Positions 252 through 31,610 of a DNA stretch of 64,000 bases are shown in pieces. The first letter of the stretch is position 1; every line of letters starts with the position of its first letter. The translations under genes and the position numbers were made by a program. The DNA is from Gemmatimonadota bacterium (GTDB taxonomy: Bacteria > Gemmatimonadota > Gemmatimonadetes > Longimicrobiales > Gaopeijiaceae): the NCBI GenBank assembly GCA_022560615.1, contig JADFSR010000007.1, positions 1-64,000 on the forward strand, in the 5' to 3' direction. Below the pieces are notes generated by a model, which worked only from the letters and a program-made list of their open reading frames with translations, was not told where the DNA came from and made no database searches.

Positions 252-1829
252 ATGATCAGCCAGAACCCACGGCCCGGGAAACGCATCCTTTGGGTCGACG
301 ACGAGATCGACCTTCTCAAGCCGCACCTGCTCTTCCTGCAGGCGCGTGGCTACCACGTCGACGCCATCGCAAACGGGGACGACGCGCTCGAGCTACTGCG
401 TGACAACTCCTATGACCTGGTTCTGCTCGACGAGCAGATGCCCGGCCGTCGGGGGCTCGAAGTGCTGGAGATCATGAGGCGTCACAATCCCCACCAGCGC
501 GTCGTGATGGTCACGAAGTCCGAAGAGGACCACACGATGACCGAGGCGATCGGGAGGCGTGTGGACGACTACCTCGTGAAGCCGACGAGCCCGCGACAGG
601 TGCTGGCGGTGGTGACGCGCATTCTCGAAGGCTCGTCGATCCGGCAGCAGCAGGCAGCTCAGGACTTCGCGGCTCGCTTCGGCCGCCTCGCTTTGCTCCA
701 GCAGGAAGCCGAGACGCCCGAGGACTTCGTGAAGGTCTTTACCGAGTTGGTGGACTGGCACATCCGGTTGGAGCGGGCGGGCGAGACCGGGCTGCTCGAT
801 ACGGTCCGTTCGATCATGGACGACCTGAGGCGCGACTTCGGCGTGTGGGTCATCCGCAACTACGCGCGATGGATGGAGGACGCGGAGGACCGGCCGCGTC
901 TGTCGGTCGACCTGGTTCGGGAGTTTCTGGTCCCGCGGCTCGGTTCGGACCCCGTGTACTTCGTGGTGCTCGACTGCATGCGGCTCGATCAGTGGAGGGT
1001 GATCTCGCCGCTGCTCGCGCAGTATTTCGACATGGACGAGACGTACCACTATTCGATTCTGCCGACTGCGACTCCCTACGCTCGAAACGCGATCTTCAGC
1101 GGACAGTATCCGGACGAAATCGCCAAGAAGCGTCCGGAATGGTGGGACGCCTCGGATGACGAGGGCAGCTTGAACGCATTCGAGGACCAGCTACTTGTCG
1201 AGCAGCTCAAGCGGCTCACGGGGCGGGACGTACCGGTTCACTACGAGAAGATCTTCTCGGACCGGCAGGGTGATCAGGTCCGCGCTCGGGTCAATTCGGC
1301 GCTCAAGACACCGGGCATCGTCATCGCGCTCGTCTTCAACTTCGTGGACCTCATGACCCACGGTCGGTCGGAGTCCCCGATCCTCATGGAGGTCGCCCGC
1401 GACGAGGCGGCGTTGAGGGACCTGACTCGAGCGTGGTTCGAGCGTTCCACGGCGTTTACGGTGCTCAAGGAGGCCGCGCTTCAGGGCCACAACGTGATCA
1501 TGACGACTGATCATGGCTCGATTCTCTGCCAGCACCCGAGCACGGTTTTCGCGAGGCGCGATGCGACGAAGAATCTCCGCTACAAGTTCGGACAGGATCT
1601 GCGTGCCGAGGTGTCGACGACCGCGTACGCGACCAGGAACGAGAAACATCTGCGACTGCCGGCGGGCCGCCTCGGCATGACCTACCTCATCGCTCTCGAG
1701 GACTACTTCTTCGTCTATCCGACGAAGCTTCGGGAGTACCAGGCGCGCTACCGAAACTCGTTTCTCCACGGCGGCATCAGCCCGGAGGAAATGATCGTCC
1801 CGGTCGTGAGTCTCACTCCGAGGCAATGA
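252..1829 (+). CDS. porX: PorX-type response regulator with PglZ domain
   Basis: A 525-residue two-domain protein. The N-terminal receiver (about 10-125) has acidic W-V-D-D-E (D16, D17), phospho-acceptor D60 in LLDEQMPG, T88 and K110. The C-terminal PglZ domain (alkaline phosphatase superfamily, about 215-520) shows VVLDCMRLDQW (D241, D246), P-T-A-T-P-Y-A-R-N around T272 and TTDHGS, the expected metal-binding and nucleophile segments. This order is that of PorX, which in Bacteroidota regulates type IX secretion and whose PglZ domain cleaves oligonucleotides. No sensor kinase or T9SS gene is adjacent. Its TGA overlaps the ABC-exporter ATG (ATGA), so the two are probably co-translated. Confidence 0.85.
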   Translation: MISQNPRPGKRILWVDDEIDLLKPHLLFLQARGYHVDAIANGDDALELLRDNSYDLVLLDEQMPGRRGLEVLEIMRRHNPHQRVVMVTKSEEDHTMTEAIGRRVDDYLVKPTSPRQVLAVVTRILEGSSIRQQQAAQDFAARFGRLALLQQEAETPEDFVKVFTELVDWHIRLERAGETGLLDTVRSIMDDLRRDFGVWVIRNYARWMEDAEDRPRLSVDLVREFLVPRLGSDPVYFVVLDCMRLDQWRVISPLLAQYFDMDETYHYSILPTATPYARNAIFSGQYPDEIAKKRPEWWDASDDEGSLNAFEDQLLVEQLKRLTGRDVPVHYEKIFSDRQGDQVRARVNSALKTPGIVIALVFNFVDLMTHGRSESPILMEVARDEAALRDLTRAWFERSTAFTVLKEAALQGHNVIMTTDHGSILCQHPSTVFARRDATKNLRYKFGQDLRAEVSTTAYATRNEKHLRLPAGRLGMTYLIALEDYFFVYPTKLREYQARYRNSFLHGGISPEEMIVPVVSLTPRQ

Positions 1830-3682
1830 ACGCCGAAGCGCGCGCGTCGCTTGCGGCTTCCCCGTACCGTCGCGTTCTCTCGTATCTGAGACCGCACTCG
1901 GGCGTCCTATTCATGGCGATCGTCGCGACCGCCGTCTTCGCGGTACTCGACGCATCGGTCTACGTCCTGCTCATCCCCTTCATCGAAGCGCTCTTCGTGA
2001 GCGGAGGCGGTCCGCGCTCCGCGAGCGAGTCGGCAATGGAGAGGTTGCTCGACGGCACCGTCTACCGGTGGGTCGACCTCTCGGGAGATCCGCTCGCGGC
2101 GATCGGACGCATCATCATTCTGATCCTGCTCGTCTTCGCGGTGAAGAACTTCTTCCACTTCACGCGCACCTATCTGGTCGCGCGCGCGGAGCAGGGGGTC
2201 AACCGAGATCTGCGCAACGAGGTGTACGACCATCTCGTCGAGCTCGACCTGACCTTCTTCAGTCGCGTGCGCATGGGTCAGATCGTGAGCCGCCTCACGA
2301 CCGAGGTCGAGCAGATGCGAACGCTCGTGACCGCCGAATTTTCCAAGCTCCTATCGGCGGTCTTCGAGTTTGCGGTGGCGGTCGTCTTGATGGTCTTGAT
2401 CTCGTGGCGACTTACGCTCGCGGCGTTCGTCGTGATTCCCGGGGCGATGATCATCTGGGGTCCGTTGGTGAACGTGCTGAGGCGGCGGGATCGGCGCGTA
2501 TTGCATCTGGGCGGGGAGATCGCCGCGCATGTGCAGGAGACGCTCACCGGCATTCGGCTCGTGAAGTCTTCGTCCGCCGAGCAGCGCGAGAAGGAGCGCT
2601 TCCGGGGTCTGACCGGGGACTACTTCAGGCACTTTCTGCGAGCCGAATTCGCGCGTGCGCTCGCCGCGCCGATGACAGAAATGCTGGCCGCGTCCGGCAC
2701 GGTGATCCTGCTCTGGTTCGGTGCTCGGCTCGTCGTGGCGGGGGAGCTCACGGGGGCGATGTTCGTCGGATTTCTCGGACTTTCGATGAAACTGTATTCG
2801 CCCGTGAAGAACGTGGCCAAGTTCCCGGCGACCGCCCAGCCGGGTCTCGTGGCGGCGGAGCGGGTGTTCGAGTTCCTCGACGCACCGGTCGAGATCAAGG
2901 ACGCGCCCGGTGCCCAGAGGCTGGAAACGTTCGAATCCGTGATCGCGTTCGAGGACGTTTCGTTCTCCTACCGTGAAGGTGAGCCCGTTCTCCGCGATGT
3001 GTCCTTGAGCGTCGAGCGCGGCGATGTAGTCGCGCTCGTCGGACCCAGTGGAGCCGGCAAGACGACGCTCGTCGACTTGCTCGGCCGCTTCTTCGAGGTC
3101 GGCTCGGGTCGTATCACGATCGACGGGGTCGACGTCCGCGACGTGCGCTTGGCGGACCTGCGAGCGCTCATGGGCGTGGTGTCCCAGGAAACGGTTCTCT
3201 TCCACGACTCCGTGCGGGCGAACATCGCCTACGGGCGCCCGGAGGCGTCACAAGCGGAAATCGAGGCCGCGGCGATCGCGGCCCACGCGCACGAGTTCAT
3301 CGCCGAGATGCCGGACGCATACGATACCCTCGTGGGCGAACGCGGCGTGGAGGTCTCGGGCGGCCAGCGACAGCGCATAGCGATCGCCCGGGCCCTGCTG
3401 CGCGACCCACCGATCCTCGTCTTCGACGAGGCGACCAGCTCGTTGGATACCGAGTCGGAACGCCTCATTCAGGACGCGATCGAGCGGCTCATGGAAGGCC
3501 GCACGGTTTTCGTGATCGCGCACAGGCTCTCGACGGTGCAGCGCGCGGACCAGATTCTGGTGATGGACGGCGGACGCATTGTCGAGCGGGGAGACCACGC
3601 GACTCTCCTCGCCCGGGCCGGGCTGTACCGCCGCCTGTACGACCTCCAGTTCGACGCGGGGGCCCTGGCCGGCAGCACGTGA
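1826..3682 (+). CDS. MsbA-like lipid A / lipid ABC exporter (fused TMD-NBD)
   Basis: A 618-residue half-size ABC exporter: a six-helix transmembrane domain (about 15-310), then a nucleotide-binding domain with Walker A GPSGAGKTT (near 409), signature VSGGQRQR (near 510), Walker B ILVFDEATS (near 530) and H-loop IAHRLST (near 564). The family flips lipids, oligosaccharides or peptides across the inner membrane as a homodimer. The next gene is a lipid A-type acyltransferase and LPS-type genes lie nearby, so an MsbA role in exporting lipid A or a glycolipid is the best inference. It overlaps both neighbours by 4 bp. Confidence 0.85.
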   Translation: MNAEARASLAASPYRRVLSYLRPHSGVLFMAIVATAVFAVLDASVYVLLIPFIEALFVSGGGPRSASESAMERLLDGTVYRWVDLSGDPLAAIGRIIILILLVFAVKNFFHFTRTYLVARAEQGVNRDLRNEVYDHLVELDLTFFSRVRMGQIVSRLTTEVEQMRTLVTAEFSKLLSAVFEFAVAVVLMVLISWRLTLAAFVVIPGAMIIWGPLVNVLRRRDRRVLHLGGEIAAHVQETLTGIRLVKSSSAEQREKERFRGLTGDYFRHFLRAEFARALAAPMTEMLAASGTVILLWFGARLVVAGELTGAMFVGFLGLSMKLYSPVKNVAKFPATAQPGLVAAERVFEFLDAPVEIKDAPGAQRLETFESVIAFEDVSFSYREGEPVLRDVSLSVERGDVVALVGPSGAGKTTLVDLLGRFFEVGSGRITIDGVDVRDVRLADLRALMGVVSQETVLFHDSVRANIAYGRPEASQAEIEAAAIAAHAHEFIAEMPDAYDTLVGERGVEVSGGQRQRIAIARALLRDPPILVFDEATSSLDTESERLIQDAIERLMEGRTVFVIAHRLSTVQRADQILVMDGGRIVERGDHATLLARAGLYRRLYDLQFDAGALAGST

Positions 3683-14780: not shown

Positions 14781-15433
14781 TGGGCGAGACCGAACAAGTA
14801 CTCTCGAGGTTCTACGGCGTACTCGTCGACGAGATTCGTGCGCAACGGCCCGACGATCTCACGGGGCCGTTCACGGTCGCGGAGATCTACCAGAACCTCG
14901 TTCCGTACGGTTCGCACCGCGACCGCATCGGTGTGGAGATGAACGGTGACTACGAAGACGCTCTGCTGCGTCTGCTCGCGGGGGAGGGCGGCTACCTGAT
15001 CCTCGAGTCCGAGGCGGCGCTCCGGAACCTGCGCGAAGAGCTCGAGTCCTCGAACCCCAACACCGGCCTGTACCGCGAGTATGCTGCTGTGGACGTGCGC
15101 CTCAATTCCGACCGGCTCGGTGGACAGGAGGTCGCTTCCCAGGAGGTCCCCGTGGACGATCCGAGCTCGGACGAGCCGGAGGGCGATGTCGACGCGGGCC
15201 TTGTCAGCGCCGCCGGGGACGAGTCGGCTGAGGAGGCGTCGGAATCCGAGTCCGACGGCGAACCGCTGACCGCCTGCCGCTGGTGCCGGGCCGATCTCCC
15301 GCAGAGGGGCACGCTGAACTTCTGCCCGTTCTGCGGCATGGACGTGCACGTCGTGCCCTGTCTGGGGTGCGGCGAGGAGTTGGCGCCGGAGTGGCGTTTC
15401 TGCGCGGCCTGCGGCGCCGAGGTCCAAGCTTGA
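14780..15433 (+). CDS. Zinc-ribbon protein with N-terminal helical domain
   Basis: 217 residues. An N-terminal ~95-residue helical region (E-Q-V-L-S-R-F-Y-G-V-L-V-D-E-I and a P-F-T-V-A-E-I-Y-Q-N-L start) is followed by an acidic low-complexity linker (about 115-165). Then come two zinc ribbons: C-R-W-C ... C-P-F-C-G and C-L-G-C-G ... C-A-A-C-G. Such double ribbons mediate protein or nucleic-acid contacts. ATG 14780 overlaps the TPR gene stop (TGATG). Confidence 0.7.
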   Translation: MGETEQVLSRFYGVLVDEIRAQRPDDLTGPFTVAEIYQNLVPYGSHRDRIGVEMNGDYEDALLRLLAGEGGYLILESEAALRNLREELESSNPNTGLYREYAAVDVRLNSDRLGGQEVASQEVPVDDPSSDEPEGDVDAGLVSAAGDESAEEASESESDGEPLTACRWCRADLPQRGTLNFCPFCGMDVHVVPCLGCGEELAPEWRFCAACGAEVQA

Positions 15434-15897
15434 GAGGAGCGCTCCGTCAGAGGCCCTTTCTCTGTGCGCTCCTGATCGCCGCCGCCGGCACGTCGTGTCA
15501 GGTGGACTCCGAGTTGCAGCCGGATGAAGTGCTGCGCTCGGAACTCGGATTGACCGATCGTGACGAGGTTCACCGTGTGGTAATCACGGGAGGGGACGTC
15601 GAGCTGGCCGAGCCGCAGGCCACCACTATTCAGCCCGGAGCCTACCTGGAGTTCGTGACGGGTGACTGGTTCGTGCATGAGATCATCTTCGAACTCGACT
15701 CCTTGCTTCCGGAAGCTCGGGCGTTCTTGGAGAGAACGGACCAGGTCGCGTCGCCTCCGCTACTGCGGTTGGACAGCAGGTACGTGGTGGACTTCGAGGG
15801 TGGCCCTCCCGGCCGGTATCCGTTCGTCCTGGAGGGCAGTGGCGCCGCGGGGCACGGGGTGGTAGTGGTCAAAGTGAAACCCTCAGAAGGCTGTTGA
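15430..15897 (+). CDS. Putative lipoprotein with cupredoxin-like domain
   Basis: 155 residues if read from TTG 15430, whose TTGA overlaps the stop of the zinc-ribbon gene. The start gives R-G-A-L-R-Q-R-P-F-L-C-A-L-L-I-A-A-A-G-T-S-C, a lipoprotein-type signal with Cys near residue 22. The mature part ends with W-F-V-H-E-I-I-F-E and P-G-R-Y-P-F-V-L-E-G-S-G-A-A-G-H-G-V-V-V-V, resembling the last strands of cupredoxins, though a full Cys/Met copper site is not visible. The last four codons and the TGA lie inside the left inverted repeat of the palindromic element, so the native C-terminus may have been altered. Confidence 0.6.
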   Translation: MRGALRQRPFLCALLIAAAGTSCQVDSELQPDEVLRSELGLTDRDEVHRVVITGGDVELAEPQATTIQPGAYLEFVTGDWFVHEIIFELDSLLPEARAFLERTDQVASPPLLRLDSRYVVDFEGGPPGRYPFVLEGSGAAGHGVVVVKVKPSEGC

Positions 15898-16249
15898 AGA
15901 AGTACAGTGGGTCGCGCACATGGTGCTTGCGCGCGTTCAGGCAAGGAACGACGAGGAGTCGTAGCAGGGCGGGCACCGCCGCCGAAGGCGGTGGTCCGAC
16001 GAGGAGAGACGATGGATCAACCGCGCAACCACCATGTGCCCAACACCGTGGCTGATAGGAACATACGAGTCTGTGGGTTGGGGTGGCACGGCCCCATCTC
16101 CGTCGTTGGAGCTCCTAGCCGTAGCGACGGCTATGGCGTCGTTGCTCCGCGACCCGCGCGTTGCGCGTGTGCCCTCTGGGGCCGTGGCATCCCGGGGACC
16201 CGTGCGTTAGCACGGGTGGCGGCCCGCTGTACTTCTTCAACAGCCTTCT
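15885..16249 (+). repeat. Palindromic structured element, copy 1 (365 bp, terminal inverted repeats, nested hairpins)
   Basis: It starts AGAAGGCTGTTGAAGAAGTA and ends with the reverse complement. 23 bp are perfect and the match extends to about 30 with two T/G positions that could pair G-U in RNA. Helix 2 pairs 15916-15933 with 16022-16039 (17 of 18). Helix 3 pairs 16087-16095 with 16178-16186. GGAGC 16108-16112 pairs with GCTCC 16144-16148. Hairpin 16116-16133 has a 7-bp stem. Extra hairpins absent from copy 2 are at 15974-15993 and 16198-16217, with a GC-rich insert around 16150-16172. No transposase ORF. It resembles a MITE-like or REP-like non-autonomous element or a structured RNA. Confidence 0.9.
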
Positions 16250-16250
16250 A

Positions 16251-17315
16251 ATGCCCAGAGTCGCGCTCATTCCCGGAGACGGTATCGGCGTCGAGGTCGT
16301 GCGCGAGGCTCGCCGCCTGCTGGAGGCGTTGAACGCGCCCGAGGGTCTCGGCTTGCAGCTGGACGACTGGGACCTCGGTGCGGAGCGGTACCTGCGCGAG
16401 GGTGTCACGATCACGGACGAGGAGTTTGCTGCGCTCGCCGAGTACGATGCCGTGCTCTTGGGGGCCCTGGGTGACCCACGCGTGCCCGGCAACGAGCACA
16501 CGAAGGACATTCTGCTCGGCATGAGGTTCAAGCTCGACCTGTACGTGAACTTCCGGCCGTGCGTGCTGCTTTCGCCGGAGCTCTCGCCGCTCAGAGATCT
16601 AGCGGGCCCGCTGCGTTTGGAGCTCTTCCGCGAGAACACTGAGGGTGCCTATACGGGTATGGGGGGTAGCTTCAAGACGGGAACACCGGACGAGGTCGCG
16701 ATCGAGGAAGACGTCAACACGCGAAAGGGGGTGGAGCGGATCATCCGGGCGGCCTTCGAGTTCGCGGACTCCCGTGGGCGTGGTCGCGTGACCTTGGTGG
16801 ACAAGGCCAACGTCCAGAGGCATGCGGGCGGTCTTTGGCGTCGCGTCTTCGCGGAAGTGGGCGCCGGCTATCCGGACATAGACCAGGACGCGATGTATGT
16901 CGATGCCATGGTCATGGATCTGGTCCGGCGACCGGAGCGCTACGAAGTCATCGTAACGTCGAATCTCTTCGGTGATATCCTGAGCGATCTCGCCGCAGAA
17001 GTGACGGGCGGGCTGGGTCTCGCTCCTTCGGCCAATATCCATCCAGGACGGAACGCGCTGTTCGAGCCCGTGCACGGATCTGCCCCGGACATCGCGGGCA
17101 CGGGAACCGCGAACCCCATTGGGGCGATTCGTTGCGTTTCGCTCATGCTCGACCACTTTGGTCGTTCTGACCTTGCGGAGCGTGTGGAGGCTGCGGTTGC
17201 CGCCTCGGTAGCAGCGGGGAGGACTACCCCCGACCTGGGGGGGAAGCACTCGACGGAAGATGTCGGCCAGTGGATCACCGCGCATGTCGCGGGCCTCCGT
17301 GCCGCGAGCAACTAG
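16251..17315 (+). CDS. Isocitrate/isopropylmalate dehydrogenase family protein (LeuB-like)
   Basis: 354 residues with the beta-decarboxylating dehydrogenase fold: A-L-I-P-G-D-G-I-G at the N-terminus, the substrate and metal region F-R-E-N-T-E-G-A-Y, the metal-binding T-S-N-L-F-G-D-I-L-S-D and the NAD loop H-G-S-A-P-D-I-A-G-T-G-T-A-N-P. Length and loop fit 3-isopropylmalate dehydrogenase or the related homoisocitrate/tartrate enzymes; no leuA, leuC or leuD lies here to decide. The ATG is 2 bp beyond the palindromic element, so any leader and ribosome site must lie within the element; no clear Shine-Dalgarno is seen. Confidence 0.85.
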   Translation: MPRVALIPGDGIGVEVVREARRLLEALNAPEGLGLQLDDWDLGAERYLREGVTITDEEFAALAEYDAVLLGALGDPRVPGNEHTKDILLGMRFKLDLYVNFRPCVLLSPELSPLRDLAGPLRLELFRENTEGAYTGMGGSFKTGTPDEVAIEEDVNTRKGVERIIRAAFEFADSRGRGRVTLVDKANVQRHAGGLWRRVFAEVGAGYPDIDQDAMYVDAMVMDLVRRPERYEVIVTSNLFGDILSDLAAEVTGGLGLAPSANIHPGRNALFEPVHGSAPDIAGTGTANPIGAIRCVSLMLDHFGRSDLAERVEAAVAASVAAGRTTPDLGGKHSTEDVGQWITAHVAGLRAASN

Positions 17316-27616: not shown

Positions 27617-29887
<2,271 letters not shown>

Positions 29888-29904
29888 GATGAGGTGTCGC
29901 TGCT

Positions 29905-30208
29905 AGAAGGCTGTTGAAGAAGTACAGTGGGCCGCGCACATGGCGCTTGCGCGCGTTCAGGCAAGGAACGACGAGGAGTCGTAGCAGGGCTACGGCGACG
30001 AGGAGAGACGATGGATCAACCGCGCAACCGCCATGTGCCCAGCACCATGATGAAATGAACATACGAGTGTGTGGGTTGGGGTGGCACGGCCCCATCTCCG
30101 TCGTTGGGGCTCCTAGCCGTAGCGACGGCTATGGCGTCGTCGCTCCGCCTAGGATCTGGGGCCGTGGCATCCCCAACGCGGCCCGCTGTACTTCTTCAAC
30201 AGCCTTCT
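29905..30208 (+). repeat. Palindromic structured element, copy 2 (304 bp)
   Basis: Same orientation and ends as copy 1. Terminal inverted repeats match over about 32 bp with one U/G-type position. Helix 2 pairs 29936-29953 with 30021-30038; helix 3 pairs 30085-30093 with 30158-30166; GGGGC 30106-30110 pairs with GCTCC 30142-30146 (one G-U); hairpin at 30114-30131. It lacks the two extra hairpins and the GC-rich insert of copy 1, having 5-7 nt substitutes instead. The first 86 nt differ from copy 1 at only two positions, both in stems and both keeping pairing. It lies between gyrB and the convergent ATPase gene, whose TAG stop uses its last two bases. Confidence 0.9.
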
Positions 30209-31610
30209 AGTCCAGACCAGCCAAGGCCTGGGCATCGACCACCCTCGCGTCGAGCCTGCGCGCGACCTCCCGTTTGAGACCGCGCGGTAGCGGCTGGCCC
30301 GTGAAGATGAGGCGTATGCGTTGCTCGCGCCCGAATCCGTAGCTCGTCTCGCGTATGGCGGCATCGAGTTGCTCGAGCGGGCGGTCCTCCGACGCGAGCC
30401 GTACCCAGTAGCTGTCGCCATAGTAGGCGGCGCCGGACGACAGGATGCCTGCGATGCCGATCTGATAGCCCGTACCCCAGAGCGAGCCACCTTCCCGGGC
30501 GTTGGCCCCGAACGCCTCGATCGCATCGAATTGCATGAAATCCCTGCATATCGCAGGAAAGACACCGACGACGTGTCTGTCGAGCTCGCTTCGAATGACC
30601 TCGCTCACGTACGCCGCCGAATCTAGACCGGTAGGATTGTGGAGGCGGGGAAGCACGAACCGAAACCAGAAGGCGAGGAATGGGTCCCGGATTCGGTAGC
30701 GTCGCGAGCGGTTCCGCGGCTTTGCGTCCATGGACTGCCTGATCTCCAACAACCCGAGTTCGAGCAGGCGCTGCAGATAGGGTGCGATCTGGCCGCTCGT
30801 CGTCAAATCAGGCACCCCTGCATGTACCGTCTTCCAGCTCGCTTCGCCGCTCGAGAGGGTGGAGAGCACGGCGTAGTAGCGCGCGGGGGTTTGCAGGTCC
30901 GCTTCGAGCCAATCCCGTCCGGCTTCCGCGAGTGGGCCGCTGGTGTCGAACACGAGGTTTCGGAGGTTGGTGCCGAGCGTGGTCGATGGATCGAGCATGC
31001 GTAGAACCCGAGGGATGCCGCCGAAGACAGTGTACGCGCGGACCAGGTCGCGCGGCTGCCCTCTCGGCAGCAGCGGCACCGCCGAGCGGAAGGGAAGGGG
31101 GCCCAGGTCGAGGTGCATGCCGAGCACGTCGGTGAACGCCTCGGTCGCTGCGCTCGTGAGTGAGTGACTCATGAGCACGACATGCAGCGCGCGGCCCTCC
31201 GCGCGTGCCTTCTCGAGTGTCGCACGAAGCGGTGCCTGAAACCGTGATCTCGCATGCCGGAGGCGGTGTGCGTCGTCGAGCACCAACACGTACGGTGCGG
31301 CACTGGGTTTTGCGCGCCCGAGCGCTACCCCGAACAGCTCCGCCCAAGCGGCCGGGTAGGGAAGCGCCGACTCCGCTCCGGAATCTGGGTCGGTCCCCCT
31401 TTGCAGCGCCCGAGCGAGCGTCTCCCGCTGTGCTTGGTCCGGCAGTGGCGGGCATCGCAAACGCAACGCCTCGAAGCCATCGAGGGCCCTGATCACAAGG
31501 GCCGTTTTGCCGACTCCGCGCATGCCGGAGACGGTCACAACGGACGCCTCTGGGCGGTCGAAGGCCGCGCGTAGCAGACCCAGCTCCCGGCTTCTTCCGT
31601 AGAATGTCAT
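30207..31610 (-). CDS. AAA-type ATPase with DUF234-like C-terminal domain
   Basis: 467 residues. The N-terminal ATPase has Walker [10 protein letters not shown] (about 29-37) and Walker [11 protein letters not shown] winged-helix-like region follows, then a C-terminal [15 protein letters not shown] segment that is the hallmark of archaeal-type ATPases with DUF234. These STAND-like proteins are often stress or defence linked, but the function is unknown. The stop codon TAG is formed by the right end of the palindromic element. It is divergent from glutamine synthetase III. Confidence 0.85.

Follow-up and report, generated by a model that had tools for sequence, protein, structure and literature searches.

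The window analysed here is a stretch of 64,000 nucleotides from a Gemmatimonadota genome, in which a palindromic sequence occurs twice with compensatory base changes between the copies. What kind of entity is maintained in this way? A sequence-only reading had proposed a structured mobile element or RNA, and this proposal holds on both counts. With a probability of about 0.7, we regard the sequence as belonging to a protein-free MITE family of Gemmatimonadota that is transposed in trans by IS5/IS1182-group DDE transposases.

Two copies in the window

Both copies lie where they had been reported (15885-16249 and 29905-30208), and the inverted-repeat ends, described earlier as about 30 bp long, are terminal inverted repeats (TIRs) of 31 nt in copy 1 and 34 nt in copy 2, with a complementarity of 94% and 97%, respectively. 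The first 86 nt differ at only 2 positions (98% identity), as had been claimed, and the base pairs named for them can be read directly from the sequence: T15912 faces G16222 (G-U) and C29932 faces G30181 (G-C), and T15924 faces A16031 where C29944 faces G30030, a true double substitution. Folded as RNA, copy 1 reaches -222.9 kcal/mol compared with -160.2 +/- 5.3 for dinucleotide shuffles (z -11.9), and copy 2 reaches -194.3 kcal/mol compared with -122.0 (z -12.7). The parts of both copies and the adjoining genes are collected in Table 1.

Table 1. Features of the two copies and their flanks in the window. Exact element bounds assume a TA target duplication; model R1 was built from homologous left arms.
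Feature	Position	Strand	Basis or remark
Copy 1 with target-site TA	15884..16250	+	exact bounds 15886-16248; left duplicate decayed to CA (15884-15885), right TA 16249-16250; empty site in G001
Copy 1 left TIR, type 1 end, 5' side of end-to-end stem	15886..15915	+	fold, TIR comparison
Copy 1 left arm, hairpin unit, tandem G.A motif on +	15916..16039	+	fold; model R1
Copy 1 hairpin module GGGCACCGCCGCCGAAGGCGGTGGTCC, not in copy 2	15971..15997	+	sequence
Copy 1 right arm, hairpin unit, tandem G.A motif on -	16076..16178	-	model R2, 43 bits
Copy 1 right TIR, 3' side of end-to-end stem	16219..16248	+	fold, TIR comparison
Copy 2 with TA at both ends	29904..30209	+	sequence, TIR comparison; exact bounds 29906-30207, TA 29904-29905 and 30208-30209
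Copy 2 left TIR	29906..29935	+	TIR comparison
Copy 2 left arm	29936..30038	+	model R1, 115.5 bits
Copy 2 right arm	30074..30178	-	model R2, 114.2 bits
Copy 2 right TIR	30178..30207	+	TIR comparison
Gene upstream of copy 1, family unassigned	15283..15897	+	ends at TGA within left repeat
Gene downstream of copy 1, isocitrate/isopropylmalate dehydrogenase family	16251..17315	+	PF00180, E 2.9e-99; ATG abuts right TA of copy 1
Gene upstream of copy 2, DNA gyrase B / topoisomerase IV B family	27956..29887	+
Convergent gene at copy 2, AAA ATPase domain	30207..31610	-	TAG stop codon created at element boundary

A widespread family without coding capacity

Two copies turned out to be too low a count. 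A 26-nt core pattern finds 53 copies in the source genome, where blastn likewise returns dozens, and this number is a lower bound because the repeats break the assembly, several contigs (e.g. C28, C43, C54, C19) terminating within element copies. Beyond this genome, DNA-level matches occur in 35 of 98 relatives. A covariance model search of the phylum, the check that the sequence-only reading had suggested, was run with the left unit and matched 61 of the 395 Gemmatimonadota genomes searched, distributed over 32 of 138 genera. The outcome named as speaking against the idea, only two copies and no further covariation, was thus not what was found: copies are many and their helices covary. All exact-pattern matches come from records with Gemmatimonadetes in the title, apart from one titled Longimicrobiales, and the core pattern is absent from the viral contigs searched.

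That no protein is encoded was borne out as well. The lengths of 48 copies (mean 342 nt; family range ~300-430 nt) fall into the classes modulo 3 as 14/15/19, and none of the frames is kept open across them; on both grounds a protein-coding reading was rejected. Of the features by which MITEs are recognised, small size, many copies, TIRs and the lack of a transposase gene are present. A search of Rfam gave no score above any gathering threshold, only chance matches. An 87-bp end-only palindrome in G014 was set aside as an internal deletion.

Two homologous hairpin units in inverted order

A consensus derived from 55 elements in 18 genomes is predicted to form a three-way junction, in which an end-to-end stem (~33 bp) is joined by left and right arms. 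The left unit on the plus strand and the right unit on the minus strand are homologous at the same offset, with a 34 nt end followed by 52 nt at 75% identity (E 2e-5), and the models R1 and R2 each also match the opposite arm in inverted order. Alignment and model matches together show that the element consists of two homologous hairpin units, arranged in inverted order within TIRs. Both arms share the motif CGACGACGAG..TAGC-loop-GCTACGGCGAGGAGGAG, in which single G-C pairs are spaced by tandem G.A mismatches; according to alignment and covariation, these mismatches are stacked on each arm's own 5' strand.

Hairpin modules of the forms GGGCACC..GGTCC and CGACCC..GGGTGCC come and go between copies and can take up the homologous spot in either arm. 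The module present in copy 1 of the window, noted also in L007, L009, L010 and L016, occupies the left arm in many copies and the homologous right-arm place in others, which looks like copying from one arm to the other. Elements of a 'half-type', found in G027 and G021 among other genomes, were considered as doubles of the right unit, a reading dropped when the models revealed a diverged left unit in most of them; the half-type copies of G027 come nearest to being symmetrical.

Covariation and a probable strand-specific constraint on the left arm

Both units covary strongly. In the left unit both sides have changed in 24 of 30 pairs, with 95.5% of cells paired and slid controls giving 4-9; in the right unit the same holds for 22 of 26 pairs, with 93.4% of cells paired and controls of 5-11. 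For either unit, 0 of 500 shuffles reach the observed values. The comparison of the two window copies alone could not separate selection on RNA from palindrome correction; the cross-genome comparison does so, for the left arm only. To distinguish constraint on RNA from constraint on DNA, G-U and A-C combinations at consensus pairs found on both strands were compared, with RNase P of the same clade as a control (G-U:A-C 139:42). The copies of the source genome taken together have no bias (80:70), from which a pure DNA constraint was first read. This view changed with the per-arm split of the cross-genome set: counted once per genome and pair, the ratio is 45:13 in the left arm, where the p-value of the test ignores shared ancestry among genomes, 30:21 in the stem and 34:41 in the right arm. 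A mutational strand bias would hit all three helix groups, so the left arm is probably constrained as a folded plus-strand RNA. In 78 of 95 copies, RNA predicted from the plus strand folds more stably than RNA from the minus strand. The left arm might be retained as RNA for processing, stability or protein binding.

Selection or copy-out through a folded form had been offered as the reason for the compensatory changes. The selection part stands for the left arm, where the strand-specific G-U excess is joined by the orientation bias described below; the copy-out part finds no support, as DDE-type ends explain the mobility and no Y1 transposase was found in the source genome.

Mobility and insertion sites

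The mobility of the element is well supported by its 53 copies, the terminal TA, an empty site and ends like those of IS5/IS1182 elements. The site of copy 1 is empty in the congeneric genome G001, where the joined flanks give an alignment of 520 bases, their full length, at 87% identity. At the junction itself the sequence has diverged, and the TA duplication is not readable there. Among the source-genome copies, TA adjoins the repeat at 39 of 46 left ends and 36 of 46 right ends, at both ends in 32 of 46, mostly in the context CTAG. At copy 1, the original junction would have read CCC-TAATG-CCC, a stop/start overlap.

From the likeness of the element ends to IS ends we infer that the moving enzyme is a DDE transposase of the IS5/IS1182 group. 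Such enzymes would bind to the outer ~17-20 bp as their recognition sequence and use TA, for the most part inside CTAG, as the insertion target. The resemblance to IS5 and IS1182 family ISs lies in these outer ~17-20 bp and in the CTAG at many ends. Unlike these ISs, the element has no transposase gene, and, compared by eye with the inspected ends, it has no sequence in common with them past ~20 bp; the core is for this reason unlike a deleted IS.

Individual IS elements illustrate the similarity. The sequence TAGGGAAGCTCTGCACAAGT is the end of an IS5_4 element (L134) in G074, where a copy of the protein-free element (L040) has nearly that end, and a close variant of it occurs in G008 (L132). 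In the source genome, CTAGGAGCCCGTGGCAGAAAG is the end of an IS1182-like element (L119) and is close to, not identical with, the type 3 end of the family. IS-like ends elsewhere are CTAGGAGCCTGTCCGAGAAACGG in G019 (L174), CTAGAAGTCTGTTGAAAATC in G067 (L115), CTAGGAAGCTGACCGGAAAG in G017 (L113) and CTAGCAGTCCGATCGGAAAGG in G027 (L139). By NCBIfam, L132 and L134 are assigned to IS5_4 and L113 and L139 to IS1182 above the cut-off; L115, L119 and L174 match IS1182 best, but under the cut-off. No autonomous element with an exact type-1 end was found in the source genome or the 59 genomes searched.

Exchangeable ends on a common core

The outer ~18 bp come in at least seven types on one core: GAAGGCTGTTGAAGAAG, GAAGGGTGATCGGAAAG, GCAGCCCGTGGTAGAAG, GCAGGTCGCTGAAAAAG, GGGAGCCTCTGCACAAGT, GGGAAGCTCTGCACAAGT and AGGAGCCTGTCCGAGTAA. 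Both ends of every complete copy are of one type, and no mixed-end copy was seen among them. On a tree of the inner core, the end type switches at least 31 times, compared with a possible minimum of 6 and a mean of 54.6 after shuffling. This tree was built by a quick method and leaves many forks open, so that 31 is a parsimony count on this one tree, not a number of measured events. At least 15 switches fall within the source genome, and for type 1 alone, branches supported at 95% or more already require 10 changes. On the tree, the core has thus been re-ended repeatedly. It may swap its ends time and again to suit other transposases, and the likely route of exchange is a hairpin-mediated copying of one end onto the other; we propose this arm-to-arm copying as the way in which both ends change together. 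The switches, at least 31 in the sampled set, and a fold that covaries across many genera suggest a long-lived parasite that changes its helper enzymes.

Genomic place and tolerance

The directions of flanking genes were called from GC by codon position, not from annotation. Under a lax rule, 23 source-genome copies share the direction of a flanking tandem gene pair and 4 oppose it, with 14 between convergent and 7 between divergent genes. Under a strict rule the ratio of co-oriented to opposed copies is 14:2 in the source genome (p 0.004) and, more weakly, 10:4 in relatives (p 0.18). Within gene series, most copies of the source genome are therefore co-oriented with their neighbouring genes, so that the plus strand would be the one read. 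The stop codon of the upstream gene is usually no more than a few bases away from the element boundary, and in most co-oriented copies of the source genome the next start codon follows within ~15 nt of the element.

Since the repeat begins with G after TA, the TA/G junction can restore a TAG stop, so that insertions at stop/start overlaps cause little damage. In the transcript, the element would fold itself out and the end of the upstream gene would meet the downstream start codon at the base of the stem. We infer from this model that fold-out is what makes the element tolerable in gene series. The copies offer a natural many-copy experiment on the tolerance of large structured insertions between stop and start codons. 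In one copy (L002) an AGGAG lies just 5' and a GTG just 3' of the element, which splits a Shine-Dalgarno-like sequence from the start codon. A general rule of a Shine-Dalgarno sequence just 5' of the element was rejected, as it is clear in few copies such as this one and absent elsewhere, including copy 1. No promoter-like site was found in or near copy 1.

MITEs are usually regarded as decayed derivatives bound to one transposase. A wider picture, which we put forward tentatively and hold to be somewhat less probable than its negation, is that of a parasitic 'chassis': an RNA-folding core would outlive its transposases by replacing both ends, perhaps arm-to-arm via its own hairpin, and its operon insertions would be made harmless by the rebuilding of stop codons and by fold-out from the mRNA, with gene end and start meeting at the stem base.

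Alternative explanations

The same observations might be accounted for at the level of DNA alone, by a MITE whose arms are kept complementary by template-switch (quasi-palindrome) correction at replication forks and by end recognition through the transposase, with the transcript uninvolved. The arms are indeed homologous inverted repeats, both ends are always of one type, as arm-to-arm correction would yield, and the counts of G-U and A-C balance in the stem, the right arm and the source-genome copies. We nevertheless consider this explanation unlikely, if worth keeping in mind, as neither correction nor a mutational strand bias can explain an excess in the left arm that the other helix groups lack, and as the element is oriented with respect to neighbouring genes despite its symmetrical ends. 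Alternatively, the element could be a host regulatory RNA or riboswitch that is repeated by chance and not mobile. Strong covariation, the orientation bias and the place beside start codons would fit, but a non-mobile RNA is very improbable given interchangeable transposon-like ends and one site where the gene pair is conserved but the element is missing; the neighbours of the copies are moreover unrelated, Rfam offers no match, and copy 1 has no promoter-like site.

Two further possibilities concern the mode of multiplication, and we give hardly any credence to either. A retro- or copy-out element, as envisaged by the sequence-only reading, would multiply via folded RNA or single-stranded DNA, which agrees with the co-orientation with transcription and the RNA-type constraint on the left arm; neither an HUH partner nor, in searches not aimed at such enzymes, a reverse transcriptase was identified, and terminal TA and DDE-like repeats fit DNA transposition. 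In REPINs, an inverted doublet of homologous hairpin units with compensatory changes (PMC3116915) is moved single-stranded by a RAYT (Y1, HUH) transposase, and our element shares the doublet and the compensatory changes. Against a REPIN-like mechanism, the Y1 transposase PF01797 is absent from the source genome (0 matches), from G001, G004, G014 and from most other carriers, and long TIRs with terminal TA resemble DDE elements; for the source genome the mechanism is refuted, barring an HUH enzyme too divergent for the Pfam model to match. Transposition in trans by an IS5/IS1182-group enzyme, with the left arm additionally held as RNA, accounts best for the mobility and the fold.

Relation to known repeats

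Bacterial MITEs with folded transcripts have been described before. Correia/NEMIS, ERIC/IRU and RUP elements of ~100-200 bp (PMC2229807) form long stem-loops in host transcripts, where those of ERIC and Correia repeats exert effects on host mRNAs (PMC2229807, PMC10969869), and in the case of ERIC the orientation is crucial for the effect on the upstream mRNA (PMC2229807). Like these, the Gemmatimonadota element is short, protein-free, multi-copy and intergenic, with TIRs and terminal TA. Compared by description, it differs in its size (~300-430 nt), its three-way junction of two homologous units, its optional hairpin modules and the presence of at least seven end types on one core. As in REPINs, the hairpin units are paired as an inverted doublet that makes up a single long hairpin and shows compensatory changes (PMC3116915), but its units are larger, its TIRs are of DDE type with terminal TA, and its own genome is without a Y1 transposase. 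Caulobacter intergenic repeats (CIR), which resemble MITEs only partly, are similar by description in their RNA of two inverted-repeat arms and a linker (PMC2229807). In the literature searched, neither this element family nor any bacterial MITE core with changing ends is reported, which is weak evidence of absence.

Solitary, truncated and abundant ends

Several single loci complement this picture. In G027 (L269, contig C271) a further end type, AGAGGGTGTTTACATACTACG, sits on the same core. Solo ends in the source genome (C16, C89, C90, C1) were considered as autonomous partners and rejected, as none looks like one. The end on C16 (position 21803; L313 and L091) is a lone perfect type-1 end, TAGAAGGCTGTTGAAGAAGTACAG, that stands partnerless directly after a coding frame and can be read as a remnant or a one-ended event. 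On C89 (L093), an IS110-like transposase gene, its family judged by eye, lies at ~1815-3548 beside a copy without its left part; the break near CCCATCTCC sits in the conserved core, which suggests that the IS inserted into the element. On C90 (L094), a transposase gene at ~1398-2848, by eye ISL3-like, adjoins a truncated copy as if inserted. In G021, from the same family as the source genome, the type-1 end is matched 113 times, 62 of them in forward and 51 in reverse direction, the highest count among the 59 genomes searched, which suggests a recent burst.
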